A DNA stretch of 64,000 bases from positions 806,001 to 870,000 of the forward strand of contig NZ_AP023420.1 of assembly GCF_018408705.1 (NCBI RefSeq), read 5' to 3'. This document shows, piece after piece, positions 14,142 to 20,268 of this stretch; within the stretch, counting starts at the first letter, position 1; every line of letters starts with the position of its first letter. The stretch is from Pusillibacter faecalis. Lineage in GTDB: Bacteria > Bacillota > Clostridia > Oscillospirales > Oscillospiraceae. A program made the translations under genes and the position numbers. The notes below the pieces were generated by a model. That model worked only from the letters and a program-made list of their open reading frames with translations. It made no database searches and was not told the DNA's origin.

Positions 14142-14151
14142 GGTGACTGCC

Positions 14152-14277
14152 GTGCTGGAAGGTTTGATTCTGGCCGGAGTCGCCCTCTGGCTGACGCTGG
14201 CCGTGCGGTCCTGCCGCCGGCACAGGGGCAGCTGTGGAGGCGACTGTGCCCGCTGCCGCCGGCGCTGCGGTCCCTGA
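14152..14277 (+). CDS. FeoB-associated Cys-rich membrane mini-protein
   Basis: A 41-residue protein starting at GTG 14152, eight bases after GAGGTG and 10 bp after feoB. One membrane helix (LILAGVALWLTLAV) is followed by RSCRRHRGSCGGDCARCRRRCGP, with five cysteines in a CGGDC-x2-C arrangement. This is the pattern of the FeoB-associated Cys-rich family, found only next to feoB. It may bind metal or aid FeoB assembly; the function is not known. The equivalent protein beside the second feoB (51884-52030) has the same SCGGDC-type core. Confidence 0.8.
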   Translation: MLEGLILAGVALWLTLAVRSCRRHRGSCGGDCARCRRRCGP

Positions 14278-14393
14278 GCCGTGGTTAGGCCGGGCCTGCA
14301 CGTGTCCACAGATTCGATGGATTTTATTGATTCGGCATAGATTTTCTTTCCGATTTTTTTGCAATTTTGTGACTATTCTCCCCTGCGCAGTGG

Positions 14394-14422
14394 TTGACTT
14401 TCCATGGTTAAACCGCTAGAAT
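14394..14422 (+). promoter_or_regulatory. Promoter of the liv leader and operon
   Basis: TTGACT, 17 bp, TAGAAT, 48 bp before the leader reading frame. No other promoter is evident before livJ. Confidence 0.75.
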
Positions 14423-14469
14423 AAAAACAATCATTCACGCAACCATTTGCGCAGAGGGAGGCGGACTTT

Positions 14470-14697
14470 ATGACTTGCACTATGTGTTATCCGATGCAGT
14501 CTCATCATGCGTCCGCTTCTTATGCGAACGCCACTTCTTGCTGCGCTAAAATTGCCGCTCTGGACGCCATTATTATGGCGTCCATTATTATTTGCGGCCT
14601 GATTAGCCTGTCCATTTTGGGCATTGTCCTGGTATTGCTGGTAGTATTGCTGCCATGCGGAAAAGTGAATATGCCCTGGGCGCGGGGGTTTTTATAA
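14470..14697 (+). CDS. Branched-chain-residue-rich leader peptide (putative liv attenuator)
   Basis: A 75-codon frame with a strong ribosome binding site (GGGAGG, 8 bases) behind a good promoter. Codons 33-62 are about two-thirds Ile, Leu and Val, including IIICGLISLSILGIVLV then LLVVLLPCGK. The run followed by PCG resembles the end of the E. coli ilvGMEDA leader peptide. A terminator hairpin begins 17 nt after its stop and livJ follows. I infer a ribosome-stalling attenuator: when Ile, Leu or Val-tRNA is scarce the ribosome stalls in this run and the terminator is not formed. It might instead be a small membrane protein. A perfect palindrome GGACGCCAT-TATT-ATGGCGTCC lies inside it. Confidence 0.6.
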   Translation: MTCTMCYPMQSHHASASYANATSCCAKIAALDAIIMASIIICGLISLSILGIVLVLLVVLLPCGKVNMPWARGFL

Positions 14698-14713
14698 GGT
14701 ATGTTGATACAGC

Positions 14714-14746
14714 AAAGCGGCTGCGCCGAAAGGTACAGCCGCTTTT
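14714..14746 (+). terminator. Attenuator terminator ahead of livJ
   Basis: AAAGCGGCTG and CAGCCGCTTTTTT arms around a 12-base loop, between the leader frame and livJ. The 5' arm AGCGGC can also pair with GCCGCT inside the leader (about 14553), which would give an antiterminator; that pairing is an inference. Confidence 0.75.
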
Positions 14747-14780
14747 TTGTATAATATTTCTTTAAAAGGAGAAGAACACG

Positions 14781-15980
14781 ATGAAAAAGAAACTCTTTGC
14801 TCTGATGATGGCCATGGTCATGGTCCTCAGTCTGGCAGCCTGCGGCGGTGACTCTGGTACCACCGACGACACCACAGACGATACCACAAACGATGCCAGC
14901 AATACTACTGGCACTGCCGGCGGCACCTTTAAAATCGGCACCATCGGTCCTCTGACCGGTGACAATGCGATCTATGGCCAGGCCGTTGCCAATGGCGCCA
15001 AGATTGCCGTGGATGAAATCAATGCCGCCAGCGGCGATATCCAGTTCGAGCTTCAGTCTGAGGACGATGTGGCGGATGGTGAGACCTCCGTCAACGCCTA
15101 CAATACTCTGATGGACTGGGGTATGCAGATGCTGGTTGGCCCCACCACCACCGGTGCATCCATTGCCGTTTCCTCTGTGGTCAATGAAGACCGGACCTTC
15201 ATGCTGACCCCCTCCGGCTCCTCCACCGACATTATCGATGGGAAGGATAATGTCTTCCAGGTCTGCTTCACCGACCCCAACCAGGGAACCGGCGCTGCCG
15301 ACTACATGGCCGAGAATATGTCTGGTGCCAAGGTTGCCGTGATCTATCAAAACGACATCGCATACTCCCAGGGCATCCGGGACACTTTTGTGGCCGAAGC
15401 GGAAGCCAAGAGCCTGGAGGTCGTCTATGAGGGCACCTTCACTGCCGACACTAAGAGCGATTTCTCCGTTCAGCTCACTGCCGCCCAGTCCGCCGGTGCG
15501 GACCTGCTGTTCCTGCCCATCTACTATCAGGAAGCCTCTGTGATTTTGAACCAGGCCAATCAGATGGGCTATACTCCCACCTTCTTCGGCGTGGATGGCA
15601 TGGACGGAATCCTGACCCTGTCCGGCTTTGACACCTCTCTGGCTGAGGGCGTCATGCTGCTGACCCCCTTCTCCGCCGACGCGGAGGACGAGCGGACCCA
15701 GACCTTTGTCAAGACCTATGAAGAGCAGTTTGGCGAGATTCCCAACCAGTTTGCCGCCGATGCCTATGATGCCGTGTATATCCTCAAGGCTGCTCTGGAA
15801 GCCGCCGGCTGCACCGCCGACATGTCCGCTGTCGACATCTGCGAGGCTCTTGTCCCCGTGATGCCCACCATCACGGTGGACGGCCTCACCGGCCAGGGCA
15901 TGACCTGGGATGCCTCCGGCGCTGTGTCCAAGGCACCCATGGCAGTTGTGATCGAAAACGGCGTGTACGTCCTGCCCTAA
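14781..15980 (+). CDS. livJ: Branched-chain amino acid ABC transporter substrate-binding lipoprotein
   Basis: A 399-residue lipoprotein that binds Leu, Ile or Val outside the membrane and gives it to LivHM. The signal peptide ends VLSLAACGG (Cys about residue 21), then a Thr/Asp-rich linker, then the type I periplasmic fold: FKIGTIGPLTGDNAIYGQA, GPTTTGASIAVSSVVN with the Ser/Thr pair that holds the amino acid, PSGSSTD, and QFAADAYDAVYI near the end. First gene of livJHMGF. The start has AAAGGAG upstream. Ligand assignment rests on the complete liv operon and the leader peptide. Confidence 0.93.
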   Translation: MKKKLFALMMAMVMVLSLAACGGDSGTTDDTTDDTTNDASNTTGTAGGTFKIGTIGPLTGDNAIYGQAVANGAKIAVDEINAASGDIQFELQSEDDVADGETSVNAYNTLMDWGMQMLVGPTTTGASIAVSSVVNEDRTFMLTPSGSSTDIIDGKDNVFQVCFTDPNQGTGAADYMAENMSGAKVAVIYQNDIAYSQGIRDTFVAEAEAKSLEVVYEGTFTADTKSDFSVQLTAAQSAGADLLFLPIYYQEASVILNQANQMGYTPTFFGVDGMDGILTLSGFDTSLAEGVMLLTPFSADAEDERTQTFVKTYEEQFGEIPNQFAADAYDAVYILKAALEAAGCTADMSAVDICEALVPVMPTITVDGLTGQGMTWDASGAVSKAPMAVVIENGVYVLP

Positions 15981-16085: not shown

Positions 16086-16115
16086 ATAGAGAAAGAAAAA
16101 GAGGTGTGTGTTCAT

Positions 16116-16994
16116 ATGGAATTCTTGTCTTATCTGATCAGCGGCATCAGCCTTGGCAGTGTATACGCTCTGATCGCCCTGGGCTACACCATGGTCTACG
16201 GCATTGCCAAGATGCTGAACTTTGCTCACGGGGATGTCATCATGGTGGGCGGCTATATTTCGTTTTGTGCCGTCAGCTATCTGGGCCTGCCCGGATGGAT
16301 TGGCGTTGTGCTGGCAGTGCTGGTTTGCACGGTGCTGGGTGTGGTCATCGAACGGCTGGCCTACAAACCCCTGCGTGCTGCGCCCTCCTTGGCGGTATTG
16401 ATCACCGCCATTGGCGTGAGCTACTTCCTGCAAAATTCCGCTTTGCTGATTTGGGGCGCGGCCAGCATCTCCTATCCTCCCCTCATCAGCGGCTCGCTGC
16501 CCCTGTTCGGCGGCAAGCTCTCCATCCCTTATGTTTCCTTGCTCACGGTGGCGGTATGCCTTGTCATCATGGCAGCTCTCACCACCTTCATCAACCAGAG
16601 CAAAATGGGAAAGGCCATGCGCGCCTGCTCAGAGGATAAGGGCGCCGCACAACTGATGGGTATCAATGTCAATGCTACGATCTCCACCACTTTTGCCATC
16701 GGCTCTGCCCTGGCGGCCATTGCCGGTGTGCTACTGTGCTCGTCCTATTCCATTCTCTCCCCCACCACCGGCTCCATGCCGGGCATCAAAGCCTTTACCG
16801 CCGCGGTCTTTGGCGGCATTGGCTCCATTCCCGGCGCGTTCCTGGGCGGGTTGCTGCTGGGCATCATTGAGTCTCTGGCCAAAGCCTATATCTCCACCAA
16901 TCTGGCCAATTCCATTGTCTTTGCTGTGCTGATCGTGGTGCTGCTGGTGCGACCCGCGGGTCTTCTTGGCAAATACGTGCCTGAGAAAGTGTGA
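16116..16994 (+). CDS. livH: Branched-chain amino acid ABC transporter permease LivH
   Basis: A 292-residue inner membrane permease with eight or so helices. Recognised by LISGISLGSVYALIALGYTMVYGIAKMLNFAHGDVIM at the start and GLLGKYVPEKV near the end; ACSEDKGAAQLMGIN is the EAA-type coupling loop. Start at ATG 16116 is preferred to the in-frame GTG 16104, which overlaps the AAGAGG site. It is followed 10 bp later by livM. Forms the channel with LivM. Confidence 0.93.
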   Translation: MEFLSYLISGISLGSVYALIALGYTMVYGIAKMLNFAHGDVIMVGGYISFCAVSYLGLPGWIGVVLAVLVCTVLGVVIERLAYKPLRAAPSLAVLITAIGVSYFLQNSALLIWGAASISYPPLISGSLPLFGGKLSIPYVSLLTVAVCLVIMAALTTFINQSKMGKAMRACSEDKGAAQLMGINVNATISTTFAIGSALAAIAGVLLCSSYSILSPTTGSMPGIKAFTAAVFGGIGSIPGAFLGGLLLGIIESLAKAYISTNLANSIVFAVLIVVLLVRPAGLLGKYVPEKV

Positions 16995-17004
16995 GGTGAC
17001 AAAT

Positions 17005-18084
17005 ATGAAAAAACTGCGCATTCAAAAACACACCCGCACAGACTTTCTCACTTACCTTGGCGTGATCGCCGCCTTTGCCGTGCTGAGCACCCTAAATGCC
17101 AGCGGCGGATTGAGCCGGTCCCTGTCCGGTCAGCTGGTCCCCATCTGCTGCTATATGTCCATGGCGGTGTCGCTGAACCTGACCGTAGGTATCTTGGGGG
17201 AGCTGAGTCTGGGCCACGCGGGATTCATGAGCGTGGGTGCCTTCTCCGGCATTATCGCCGCCATGAGCCTGCAGAGCGCCATTCCCTCCGAGCCTATCCG
17301 GCTGGCGATTGCCATGGTGGTCGGTGCGCTGGTGGCCGCGCTGGCAGGTGTCATCGTAGGCACGCCAGTGCTGCGGCTCCGGGGCGACTACCTGGCCATT
17401 GTCACACTGGCCTTTGGCGAAATCATCAAGGAGCTGGTCAACTGTCTTCTGGTGGGCCACGACTCCCGGGGGCTGCACATCGCCCTCAACATCACCGGCA
17501 GTAAGAGCATCGCGGACCTTCATCTGGAGGAGGACGGCCTTGCCATCATCAAGGGTGCTCAGGGTGCCGCCGGCACCAATACCATTGCAACCTTCACCGC
17601 AGGCTTTCTGCTGGTGATGGTGACATTGGCGGTGGTTTTAAATCTGAAACACAGCCGAGCGGGCAGGGCTGTTATGGCGCTGCGGGACAACAGCATTGCC
17701 GCAGAGAGCATTGGATTAAATATCACCAAATACAAAATGATGGCTTTTGTTACCTCCGCCGCTCTGGCCGGCGCCGCCGGCGCGTTGTACGGCTTGAATT
17801 TCTCCTCTCTCCAGGCGACCAAGTTCAACTTTAACACCTCCATTTTGATTCTGGTCTTTGTGGTGCTGGGCGGTCTTGGCAACATCTGGGGTTCCCTGAT
17901 TGCCGCCGCCGCACTGACGGTGCTTCCAGAGATGCTCCGTGCTTTCTCCGACTATCGGATGCTGGTGTACGCCATCGTGCTGATCCTGGTGATGCTGGCT
18001 ACCAATAATCCCACCTTCAAGGTGTTTTTCAGCCGCTTCCGCCGGGGCGGTTCCCGCAAGAGTACCGGAAAGGAGGCCATGTGA
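17005..18084 (+). CDS. livM: Branched-chain amino acid ABC transporter permease LivM
   Basis: A 359-residue permease. Start ATG 17005 follows GAGGTGA, giving MKKLRIQKH and a basic N-terminus; the frame is open upstream into livH but without a site. Family features: NLTVGILGELSLGHAGFMSVGAFSG, LRLRGDYLAIVTLAFGEIIKE, and the coupling loop MALRDNSIAAESIGLNITKYK. Ends two bases before livG. Confidence 0.93.
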   Translation: MKKLRIQKHTRTDFLTYLGVIAAFAVLSTLNASGGLSRSLSGQLVPICCYMSMAVSLNLTVGILGELSLGHAGFMSVGAFSGIIAAMSLQSAIPSEPIRLAIAMVVGALVAALAGVIVGTPVLRLRGDYLAIVTLAFGEIIKELVNCLLVGHDSRGLHIALNITGSKSIADLHLEEDGLAIIKGAQGAAGTNTIATFTAGFLLVMVTLAVVLNLKHSRAGRAVMALRDNSIAAESIGLNITKYKMMAFVTSAALAGAAGALYGLNFSSLQATKFNFNTSILILVFVVLGGLGNIWGSLIAAAALTVLPEMLRAFSDYRMLVYAIVLILVMLATNNPTFKVFFSRFRRGGSRKSTGKEAM

Positions 18085-18085
18085 T

Positions 18086-18919
18086 ATGTTCTCAAAACTG
18101 ATTCCTGTCCCCTCCCCTAACATGCTACCGGACCGGGACATCGACAAGTCCCCGATTTTGGAGTGCATCAACGTGGGCATCAACTTCGGCGGCCTCGCGG
18201 CGGTGGAGGATTTTAACATTGCCATCGGCCGAACGGAGATCTCCGGCCTGATCGGGCCCAATGGCGCCGGTAAAACCACGGTTTTTAACCTGCTGACTAA
18301 AGTCTATCAGCCCACTAAGGGCACCATCCTGCTGGATGGCAAGGATACCCACGGCATGACCACCGCCCAGGTAAACCGGGCCGGTATTGCCCGGACTTTT
18401 CAGAATATCCGCCTTTTCAATGACCTGACGGTAGAGGAAAATGTCACCGTGGCCATGGACGCCCAGATGTCCTACAGCATGTGGAGCGGCATCTTCCGCC
18501 TGCCGAAATTCTGGAAAGAGGAAAAGGTGGTCCATGACCGGGCATTGGAGCTTTTGAGCCTGTTCCATATGGAAGATCTGGCTGGAGCCAAGGCGGGTTC
18601 GCTGCCCTATGGCGCGCAGCGCCGGTTGGAAATCGTACGAGCGCTTGCCACCAATCCCTCTCTTTTGCTTTTGGATGAGCCCGCTGCGGGTATGAACCCC
18701 TCCGAGACGGCGGAGCTGATGGAAAACATCCGAAAAATTCGTGATACCTTCCAGATCGCGGTACTGTTGATTGAACACGACATGAGTCTGGTCATGAACA
18801 TCTGCGAGGGCATCGCGGTGCTGAATTTTGGCCGTATCATCGCCAAGGGCACGCCGGCAGATATCCAGTCCAATCCCGCAGTCATTGAGGCCTATCTTGG
18901 CAAGAAAAAGGAGGCGTGA
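18086..18919 (+). CDS. livG: Branched-chain amino acid ABC transporter ATPase LivG
   Basis: A 277-residue ATPase with an N-terminal extension of about 24 residues before the nucleotide domain. Walker A GPNGAGKTT near residue 65; Q-loop ARTFQNIRLF, typical of LivG; signature replaced by LPYGAQRRLEI, usual for the LivG family; Walker B LLLLDEPAAGMNPSE; H-loop LIEHDMSLVM. Partner of LivF. Confidence 0.93.
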   Translation: MFSKLIPVPSPNMLPDRDIDKSPILECINVGINFGGLAAVEDFNIAIGRTEISGLIGPNGAGKTTVFNLLTKVYQPTKGTILLDGKDTHGMTTAQVNRAGIARTFQNIRLFNDLTVEENVTVAMDAQMSYSMWSGIFRLPKFWKEEKVVHDRALELLSLFHMEDLAGAKAGSLPYGAQRRLEIVRALATNPSLLLLDEPAAGMNPSETAELMENIRKIRDTFQIAVLLIEHDMSLVMNICEGIAVLNFGRIIAKGTPADIQSNPAVIEAYLGKKKEA

Positions 18920-18921
18920 GT

Positions 18922-19632
18922 ATGGCGGCAATCTTAACTGTAGACAATATCAATGTCTATTATGGCAGTATCCACGCCATCAAGGGCATCTCCTTTGAGG
19001 TCAATGAGGGGGAAATCGTCACCTTGATCGGAGCCAACGGCGCTGGAAAATCCACCACGCTGAACACCATTGCGGGACTGCTCCACAGTCACACCGGCTC
19101 TGTCACCTTTCTTGGCGAGAACCTGGGGAAGGTTCCTGCGCACAAAATTGTCTCCCGGGGCCTGGCACTCGTGCCGGAGGGACGCCGCGTCTTCTTGCAG
19201 ATGACGGTGCAGGAAAATCTGGAAATGGGCTCCTATACGCAGCCCGGCTCTGGTATTTCCGCCGATCTGGAGCGGGTCTATGATCTGTTCCCCCGTCTGA
19301 GGGAACGCCGCAAGCAGGTGGCGGGCACGCTTTCCGGCGGTGAGCAGCAGATGTTAGCTATGGGCCGGGCCCTGATGAGCCATCCCAAGCTACTGATGCT
19401 GGATGAGCCCTCCATGGGCCTTGCGCCGATTCTCGTGGAGCAGATCTTTTCCATCATTCAGGATCTGCACCGTTCCGGCTCCACAATTTTGCTGGTGGAG
19501 CAGAATGCACAGGCAGCTTTGAATGTCGCTGATCGCGGCTATGTGCTGGAAACCGGGAAAGTCGTTACCACTGGCACCGGCCAGGAGCTACTGGAAAATC
19601 CCGCTATTAAAAAAGCATACCTGGGCGGTTGA
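18922..19632 (+). CDS. livF: Branched-chain amino acid ABC transporter ATPase LivF
   Basis: A 236-residue ATPase. Start ATG 18922 is seven bases after AAGGAGG; a GTG at 18916 overlapping the livG stop is too close to that site. Walker A GANGAGKSTT, signature LSGGEQQMLAM, Walker B LLMLDEPSMGLAP, H-loop LLVEQNAQAAL, all usual for LivF. Last gene of the operon, followed at once by a terminator. Confidence 0.93.
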   Translation: MAAILTVDNINVYYGSIHAIKGISFEVNEGEIVTLIGANGAGKSTTLNTIAGLLHSHTGSVTFLGENLGKVPAHKIVSRGLALVPEGRRVFLQMTVQENLEMGSYTQPGSGISADLERVYDLFPRLRERRKQVAGTLSGGEQQMLAMGRALMSHPKLLMLDEPSMGLAPILVEQIFSIIQDLHRSGSTILLVEQNAQAALNVADRGYVLETGKVVTTGTGQELLENPAIKKAYLGG

Positions 19633-19642
19633 CGCCTGAAAA

Positions 19643-19664
19643 AGAGCGCCAATGGCGCTCTTTT
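19643..19664 (+). terminator. Terminator of the liv operon
   Basis: AGAGCGCC-AAT-GGCGCTCT then TTTT. Confidence 0.85.
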
Positions 19665-19694: not shown

Positions 19695-19755
19695 GCTGTC
19701 ATAACGCCGGGCGGCCATGCCGCTTTGGATTTCCATGCTAGAGGGAGGGATGCTT

Positions 19756-20268
19756 ATGCAGGCAGAACAGCGCCGACAGGCCATCCTCAATACGCTGCGG
19801 CAGTCTGATCAGCCAGTCAGTGCCGGTGTTCTGGCAGAGCGGTTCTCCGTGAGCCGGCAGATCGTTGTGGGAGATGTTGCTCTTCTGCGGGCTACTGGCG
19901 CGGACATCACCGCCACCCCCCGCGGGTATGTCATGCAGCGCTCACCGGCTGGCCTTTTGCGTCAGATTGTCTGCCGCCACAGTGCCTCCGGCATGGAGGC
20001 GGAGCTCAACGCCATGGTGGACAACGGCTGCACTGTATTGGATGTCATCGTGGATCATCCTGTCTATGGACAGCTCACCGGCCCATTGCAGCTCTCCAGC
20101 CGGTACGATGTGCAGCAGTTCCTGGACCGCTGCGCCCAGTCTGACGCCCGTCCCCTGTCTGATCTGACAGAGGGGATTCATCTCCATACGATTTCCTGCC
20201 CCGATGAGGCGTCCTGGCAGCGAGTATTGGACGCACTGCGACGGATGCATATTTTAATTGAAGCATGA
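19756..20268 (+). CDS. niaR: NiaR/YrxA-type nicotinate-responsive repressor
   Basis: A 170-residue transcription repressor: an N-terminal HTH_11 domain (RRQAILNTLRQSDQPVSAGVLAERFSVSRQIVVGDVALL) and a C-terminal 3H domain that senses niacin, with the three family histidines visible near residues 75, 95 and 138. It represses NAD precursor uptake and synthesis genes in Firmicutes. None lie next to it here, so its targets are elsewhere or autoregulation. Start ATG 19756 is six bases after GGAGGG; an ATG at 19750 abuts that site. Confidence 0.87.
   Translation: MQAEQRRQAILNTLRQSDQPVSAGVLAERFSVSRQIVVGDVALLRATGADITATPRGYVMQRSPAGLLRQIVCRHSASGMEAELNAMVDNGCTVLDVIVDHPVYGQLTGPLQLSSRYDVQQFLDRCAQSDARPLSDLTEGIHLHTISCPDEASWQRVLDALRRMHILIEA

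Follow-up and report, generated by a model that had tools for sequence, protein, structure and literature searches.

The trp, his, leu, and ilv operons of Escherichia coli and Salmonella are controlled by ribosome-mediated attenuators, which combine a leader open reading frame (ORF) holding control codons, a pause hairpin melted by the ribosome, and mutually exclusive antiterminator and terminator structures (PMC1183508). In the Firmicutes, the leucine-rich attenuator of Staphylococcus aureus ilvD (PMC5794164) and Listeria Rli60 (PMC5864092) likewise join a leader peptide rich in branched-chain amino acids (BCAA) to a terminator and an antiterminator, and the former paper cites predictions of BCAA attenuation for lactococci and streptococci (PMC5794164). 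An upstream ORF (uORF) enriched in Ile/Leu/Val codons, with an antiterminator and a terminator, has also been described for biosynthesis genes in Actinobacteria (the Corynebacterium ilvB motif), together with a cis-element upstream of genes for LIVBP-like domains (the Streptomyces livJ motif) (PMC11109978). We analyzed a stretch of 64,000 nucleotides from Pusillibacter faecalis (contig NZ_AP023420.1, positions 806,001 to 870,000, hereafter the window), in which the region in front of livJHMGF very probably constitutes, judging from sequence comparison, a ribosome-mediated transcription attenuator. The promoter, the well-started 75-codon frame, the terminator, and then livJ are all present at 14394-14781, as proposed in the original prediction, which was made from the sequence of this locus (Table 1).

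The logic of this attenuator would be of the trp/ilv type, a stalled ribosome leading to readthrough and a ribosome at the stop codon leading to termination. Unlike in trp, where the pause site comes after the regulatory codons and region II, the pause-type hairpin here precedes the control run and has no strand in common with the antiterminator; moreover, the 90 leaders analyzed count 54 to 142 codons (the extremes, L182 and L178, being uncertain start calls and the remainder having 55 to 100 codons) compared to 15 in trp, and their operons serve uptake and catabolism (PMC1183508). The S. aureus ilvD and Listeria Rli60 systems serve biosynthesis, the Rli60 leader being 13 residues long, and the available text of both papers does not mention an intra-ORF checkpoint hairpin (PMC5794164, PMC5864092). 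The Streptomyces livJ motif is put forward as a strong candidate for a riboswitch; the available text names no uORF, and the motif is set apart here by its description and not by its sequence (PMC11109978). The original prediction regarded a ribosome-stalling leader on a transporter operon as new or rare in Firmicutes; since attenuators of BCAA biosynthesis are already known there (PMC5794164, PMC5864092), this stands only for uptake and catabolic operons. A literature search, to which most subscription journals were closed, returned no Oscillibacter or Dysosmobacter leader and no leader-peptide attenuator of a Firmicutes liv operon. Premature termination at E. coli livJ was reportedly described in the 1990s. 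As far as we searched, the novelty lies in a family of leaders spread across one clostridial family, placed on uptake and catabolic operons, and provided with a separate pause- or terminator-like checkpoint ahead of the control codons.

Ninety-three homologous leader loci were gathered with leader-peptide queries rather than through the downstream genes, which therefore offer an independent readout. A search for the leader peptide matched 19 of 99 genomes, our own included, and an alignment of these 19 leaders (A1) then matched, at E<=0.01, 51 of the 86 genus genomes, at least one match (G104) being false, and 5 of 295 genomes across the order, namely our own and four judged false. A mixed alignment (A3) detected leaders in 40 genomes out of 400, covering 20 of the 106 genera of the family, some of these weak matches being uncertain, and in 2 of 245 genomes across the class (our own and G937). 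Two leaders per genome occur in 11 of 79 genomes (one of the two at a contig end in G108). Weak matches judged false by eye were removed (L091, L092, L093, L138, L140, and L049-L052), L191 duplicates L132, and statistics on 90 leaders exclude L042, L181, and L136. In related genomes, the ORF, the hairpin, and the terminator recur together: an intrinsic terminator precedes the first structural gene in 92 of the 93 loci (the scan returned 93, from which the apparently spurious one of L042, next to the end of its contig, is subtracted), a TTGAC plus a -10-like hexamer lies upstream in 84/90 leaders, and a sequence resembling a Shine-Dalgarno (SD) site is found in 89/90, a count that depends in part on start codons having been picked by their SD. 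In L181 (G428), the first half and the terminator are conserved and the Ile/Leu/Val run is out of frame, through decay, assembly error, or frameshift.

Excluding the two loci whose contig ends before the next operon, the operon behind the leader begins with livJ in 75 of 91 loci and with lctP in 12 (both by tblastn), with a symporter gene in 2, and, once each, with an isoleucine-2-epimerase homologue and with an amidohydrolase gene followed by a LeuA-like gene. In all 12 lctP loci the permease gene is followed by the same L-2-hydroxyacid dehydrogenase (79-91% identical to that of L086). The lctP frame of L178 (G716) is much shorter than usual (194-amino-acid frame, dehydrogenase at +621). The L086 enzyme matches L-lactate dehydrogenase (L-LDH) 3wsv (E 2.8e-57) and L-2-hydroxyisocaproate dehydrogenase (HicDH) 1hyh (E 6.3e-55), stays below the NCBI cut-off for L-LDH, and is without the QKPG.TR loop of the aligned LDH; Pfam labels the pair simply as lactate permease and lactate/malate dehydrogenase. 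LctP and its partner dehydrogenase probably form a branched-chain 2-hydroxyacid operon. The best solved relatives of the class-III pyridoxal-phosphate (PLP) enzyme are isoleucine 2-epimerases (E 2-3e-93), and that of the symporter, an SNF family member, is 4us3 (E 3.5e-78), which we take to be the hydrophobic amino acid transporter MhsT. In G937, Pfam places an Amidohydro_2 gene ahead of one with an HMGL-like domain and a LeuA allosteric domain, the latter gene being similar to 2-isopropylmalate synthase at scores below the cut-offs. The leaders may predict function, the LctP/dehydrogenase, symporter, and class-III PLP genes behind them probably handling branched-chain compounds.

The leader ORF is divided into an N-terminal half nearly devoid of Ile/Leu/Val and a C-terminal half formed by the control-codon run. 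Among the 90 leaders, these residues amount to 64 of 2986 (2.1%) before the hairpin, leaving out the first residue and the four residues preceding the hairpin, versus 1571 of 2695 (58%) after it. In our leader, the proposed count of 20 Ile, Leu, or Val among codons 33-62 was recovered on the translation; the PCG-K ending likened to the enteric ilv leader is not general (PCG in 1/93 leaders, CGK in 3/93). In 57 leaders of the genus the run consists of 35.5% Leu, 20% Val, 11% Ile, and 1.4% Phe, with a strong synonymous bias compared to 30 genes of the window (Val GTA 65% versus 13%, Leu CTG 85% versus 50%, Ile ATT 84% versus 36%). GTA also dominates among the Val codons of 26 liv leaders from other genera (62%), and the 12 lctP leaders are Leu-rich (36%) and Val-poor (7.5%). 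The half before the hairpin carries a conserved Ala/Ser/Cys-rich stretch, ASA..A.ASSCA (23% Ala and 15% Ser in the genus).

The antiterminator was sought with a swap test in which arms were exchanged between 75 diverse leaders, 14 region pairs being compared in a first round. The pairing suggested in the original prediction, between AGCGGC of the terminator and GCCGCT of the leader (at about 14552), did not hold, showing no native specificity across the family, and an antiterminator in the first half of the leader was rejected (T5:N -14.19 native versus -13.99 swapped). This round gave no specific partner for the terminator 5' arm when the stretch after the hairpin was taken as a whole (-12.96 versus -12.66). 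A second look at the same question (10 region pairs plus 2 controls) took the last 15 codons and linker separately and included the A-tract: the 5' arm with its A-tract then matched the last codons and linker at -15.31 natively versus -13.64 swapped (mean rank 0.350+-0.027, 73 leaders), a match that weakened without the A-tract (0.413+-0.028). The 3' arm had no native-specific partner in the last codons (0.520), and the native match of the terminator tail with the linker (0.423+-0.027) was taken to prolong the terminator stem. Refolding of chimeras with the last 8 codons swapped gave a mean rank of 0.371+-0.032 (75 leaders), and of 0.279+-0.049 in other genera. On 38 of the 47 liv leaders of the genus (alignment A4; the 9 dropped had mostly long or unusual linkers), 83.7% of 442 cells were paired and 8 of 12 pairs changed on both sides, versus 2.0 in shuffled alignments (0/500 as high). 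Moreover, the predicted upstream pairing of the 5' arm falls from 0.65 with the run stalled to 0.10 with a ribosome on the stop codon (88 loci), a fall that is partly trivial as less RNA is then free. These results support an antiterminator whose candidate 5' strand comprises the last codons, the stop codon, and the linker and pairs with the terminator 5' arm. The comparison of leader frames across related genomes, advised in the original prediction, thus found both the Ile/Leu/Val codons and the terminator/antiterminator pairing conserved, and the predicted leader-peptide attenuation gains support from the conserved ORF and control codons, the branched-chain-related genes downstream, and a covarying antiterminator that holds the leader stop codon.

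Several observations weigh against this interpretation. For the antiterminator, (i) the codon-swap rank is 0.421+-0.045 in the liv leaders of the genus alone (n=35), (ii) pairs 15-54 and 16-53 are each missing in 13 of the 38 aligned sequences, (iii) a slide by -2 gives equally many further pair types (17), with double changes in 5 pairs, (iv) RNAalifold run unaided on A4 recovered 3 antiterminator pairs only, and (v) our own locus is a weaker example, with a pairing probability of 0.46-0.81 and with another fold of its segment that differs (4 of 11 arm bases paired upstream). The branched-chain substrate of LctP and its partner dehydrogenase is putative. Finally, seven livJ orthologues of the genus come without a detectable leader: livJ matched at E<=1e-60 in 60 of the 86 genomes, with at least 53% identity in 58, of which 47 carry the leader, and among 10 upstream stretches that were read, 7 had no detectable leader (G003, G103, G019, G105, G104, G030, and G026) and 3 stop at contig ends (G009, G107, and G047, the last two carrying a leader on another contig); G051 and G118, with truncated livJ matches, were outside this reading. 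In G030 (L194) and G026 (L198), the livJ promoter runs almost straight into the terminator, the leader ORF being apparently lost.

The best-supported part of the element is the palindrome within the ORF, previously placed at 14561-14582 and now extended to 14561-14584, which is conserved and covaries as an RNA hairpin. In our leader it is a perfect 10-bp palindrome with a TATT loop (-17.1 kcal/mol). Across 53 of the 90 leaders (alignment A5, from which near-duplicates and long-loop variants were dropped, L174, L177, and L178 among these having imperfect stems), 99.5% of 424 cells are paired, compared to at most 50.5% for slid partners, and compensation is seen at 5 of 8 pairs (32 cells versus 7.3 shuffled, 0/500 shuffles as high); a weaker measure, further pair types, gave 10 versus 8.2, reached by 21/500 shuffles. 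In many cases the compensation alters the encoded amino acids (LDA..AS becomes LDT..VS; L132 and L190 have ID..S, its TCG matching C), which argues that selection acts on RNA pairing, and a DNA operator was rejected because the arms covary and the loop length varies. The 8 nucleotides 3' of the hairpin read TTNTTNTT, with T at positions 1, 2, 4, 5, 7, and 8 in 90, 87, 90, 82, 80, and 81 of the 90 leaders. NTN codons end in T in 242/260 cases within this tract versus 351/1409 later in the run, and an exact TTNTTT, the motif of NusG-dependent pausing, follows the hairpin in 42/90 leaders, against a background of 17/1891 windows in the rest of the run and 56/2896 in the first half. The NusG of this genome reads RNV where 2jvv, presumably E. 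coli NusG, has RSV and where the best solved match, 8ehq, has RNT. Pro-pausing residues are N81 and T82 in Bacillus subtilis NusG and S85 and V86 in that of E. coli (PMC12288461); the Asn is kept here and the Thr is not. The hairpin is separate from the antiterminator and placed ahead of the control codons, and its role in pausing, which may or may not depend on NusG, is putative.

A somewhat unlikely alternative, compatible with the attenuator and altering one of its steps, is that the hairpin and T tract act as a true intrinsic terminator, so that the polymerase terminates within the ORF unless a ribosome follows closely, a translation checkpoint thus preceding the amino acid checkpoint. The hairpin did score as terminator-like, with a median stem of -16.3 kcal/mol across leaders and 5-7 T among the 8 nucleotides past the stem in 90/90. 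Against termination speaks the B. subtilis tlrB leader, where pause ends were earlier mistaken for a terminator; there, as proposed here, a hairpin and a pause, which is NusG-dependent in tlrB, synchronize polymerase and ribosome in a leader-peptide system, with the differences that stalling is drug induced and that the pause site follows the leader ORF and precedes the gene (PMC6851288).

We propose the following model, in which leader translation, pausing, synchronization, and the direction of the response are inferred. RNA polymerase would pass the SD and the Ile/Leu/Val-poor first half, form the intra-ORF hairpin, and halt at the T-rich tract, until the first ribosome melts the hairpin and frees the polymerase, so that the two would move into the Ile/Leu/Val run together. 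If charged tRNA(Ile, Leu, Val) is plentiful, the ribosome would reach the stop codon and cover the antiterminator 5' strand, resulting in terminator formation. With low charging, it would stall in the run, leaving the last codons and linker to pair with the terminator 5' arm and resulting in readthrough into livJHMGF. The parts on which this model draws, namely the ORF, control codons, hairpin, antiterminator, terminator, and BCAA-related operons, emerge from the comparison of leaders. More tentatively, and with odds slightly on the other side, the element could be a two-checkpoint attenuator. An ORF-embedded pause or terminator passable only by a translating ribosome would precede an exceptionally long control run, selected isoacceptors (GTA, CTG, ATT) would decode this run, and the element would answer very sharply to branched-chain amino-acyl-tRNA. 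It would be a portable module, reused throughout one clostridial family before operons for BCAA uptake and catabolism that are not linked to each other, and would coexist with the T-boxes by which this genome controls leuA and BCAA tRNA synthetases.

Nascent-peptide sensing, for which TnaC is the model, would have the ribosome arrested by a free branched-chain amino acid or by the peptide itself; some of the operons do look catabolic (epimerase, hydroxyacid dehydrogenase), but both the order and the number of residues in the run differ between leaders, and the best-conserved residues are those overlying the RNA hairpin, making this reading very unlikely. Least likely of all, if by a small margin, is a functional small membrane protein cotranscribed with liv, whose transmembrane helix would be the run and whose RNA structures would be incidental, since against the conserved start, SD, and frame and the Arg/Lys that often follow the hydrophobic stretch stand the composition of the run (67% Ile/Leu/Val and 1.4% Phe versus 43% and 7.6% in membrane-like stretches from this genome; median best 21-residue Ile/Leu/Val fraction 0.71 versus a maximum of 0.57 in membrane-like stretches of window genes, n=29), the synonymous bias to GTA/CTG/ATT, amino acid changes that preserve base pairs, the variable length, and last codons that pair with the terminator.

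Other BCAA regulators were also considered. An Rfam search of the window gave no family at gathering score, T-box RF00230 included, and a T-box or other Rfam element as the leader was rejected. The whole genome (G000) holds 15 T-box matches at E<=1e-3, none in the window and 6 above cut-off. These 15 include T-boxes in front of leuS, leuA, valS (here an ORF intervenes), and ileS, the last scoring below cut-off (L205, L206, L208, and L213); one genome would sense these amino acids both by T-boxes and through the ribosome. CodY control was rejected as well, as no PF06018 match was obtained in G000 (97.65% complete), the B. subtilis and Lactococcus lactis controls being positive. If our reading is true, gut Clostridia possess a ribosome-run branched-chain amino acid regulon, with CodY not found in the genome and beside T-boxes at valS, leuS, ileS, and leuA. 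In theory, synchronized starts and many control codons produce hypersensitive attenuation (PMC1183508); with a putative synchronizing hairpin apart from the switch and 18/23 control codons, natural variants of this leader could test that theory.

Table 1. Features of the leader, its operon, and the related lctP loci (positions in the window)
Feature	Position or loci	Strand	Basis
Promoter, sigma-70-type, TTGACT-17-TAGAAT	14394..14422	+	Sequence scan
Leader ORF Shine-Dalgarno, GGGAGG	14456..14461	+	SD-like in relatives
Leader ORF, 75 codons, ATG at 14470	14470..14697	+	ORF list, homologues, composition
Intra-ORF hairpin, 10 bp, loop TATT, encodes LDAIIMAS	14561..14584	+	Covariation and folding energy
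T-rich tract (TTNTTNTT consensus) directly 3' of hairpin, candidate pause site for RNA polymerase or terminator-like element	14585..14593	+	Per-position counts
Control-codon run, Ile/Leu/Val 18/23 codons	14584..14652	+	Translation, codon bias
Candidate antiterminator 5' strand, GGCGCGG..GTTTT, last codons ahead of stop	14679..14692	+	Folding; family-level support
Leader stop codon TAA, inside antiterminator	14695..14697	+	Sequence
Predicted apical antiterminator helix, GTAT/ATAC	14699..14710	+	Folding; equivalent CTGT/ACAG helix covaries in relatives
Terminator 5' arm, common to antiterminator	14714..14727	+	Terminator scan, folding
Terminator 3' arm and T6 tail (stem 14714-14745, then T6)	14732..14748	+	Terminator scan
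livJ, substrate-binding lipoprotein	14781..15980	+	Matches Peripla_BP_6
livH, livM, livG, livF	16104..19632	+	Best NCBIfam matches are liv families, below those families' cut-offs
LctP-family permease and L-LDH/HicDH-type dehydrogenase	L084-L086, L088-L090, L131/L193, L141/L217, L142/L218, L178, L184, L185

Two neighbors of the operon complete the locus. Just upstream of the liv promoter and directly after feoB, a short Cys-rich hydrophobic frame (14150-14279) is presumably of the FeoB-associated Cys-rich type. Behind livF, past a terminator-like stem at 19640-19664, lies a regulator gene with HTH_11 and 3H domains (19717-20268).
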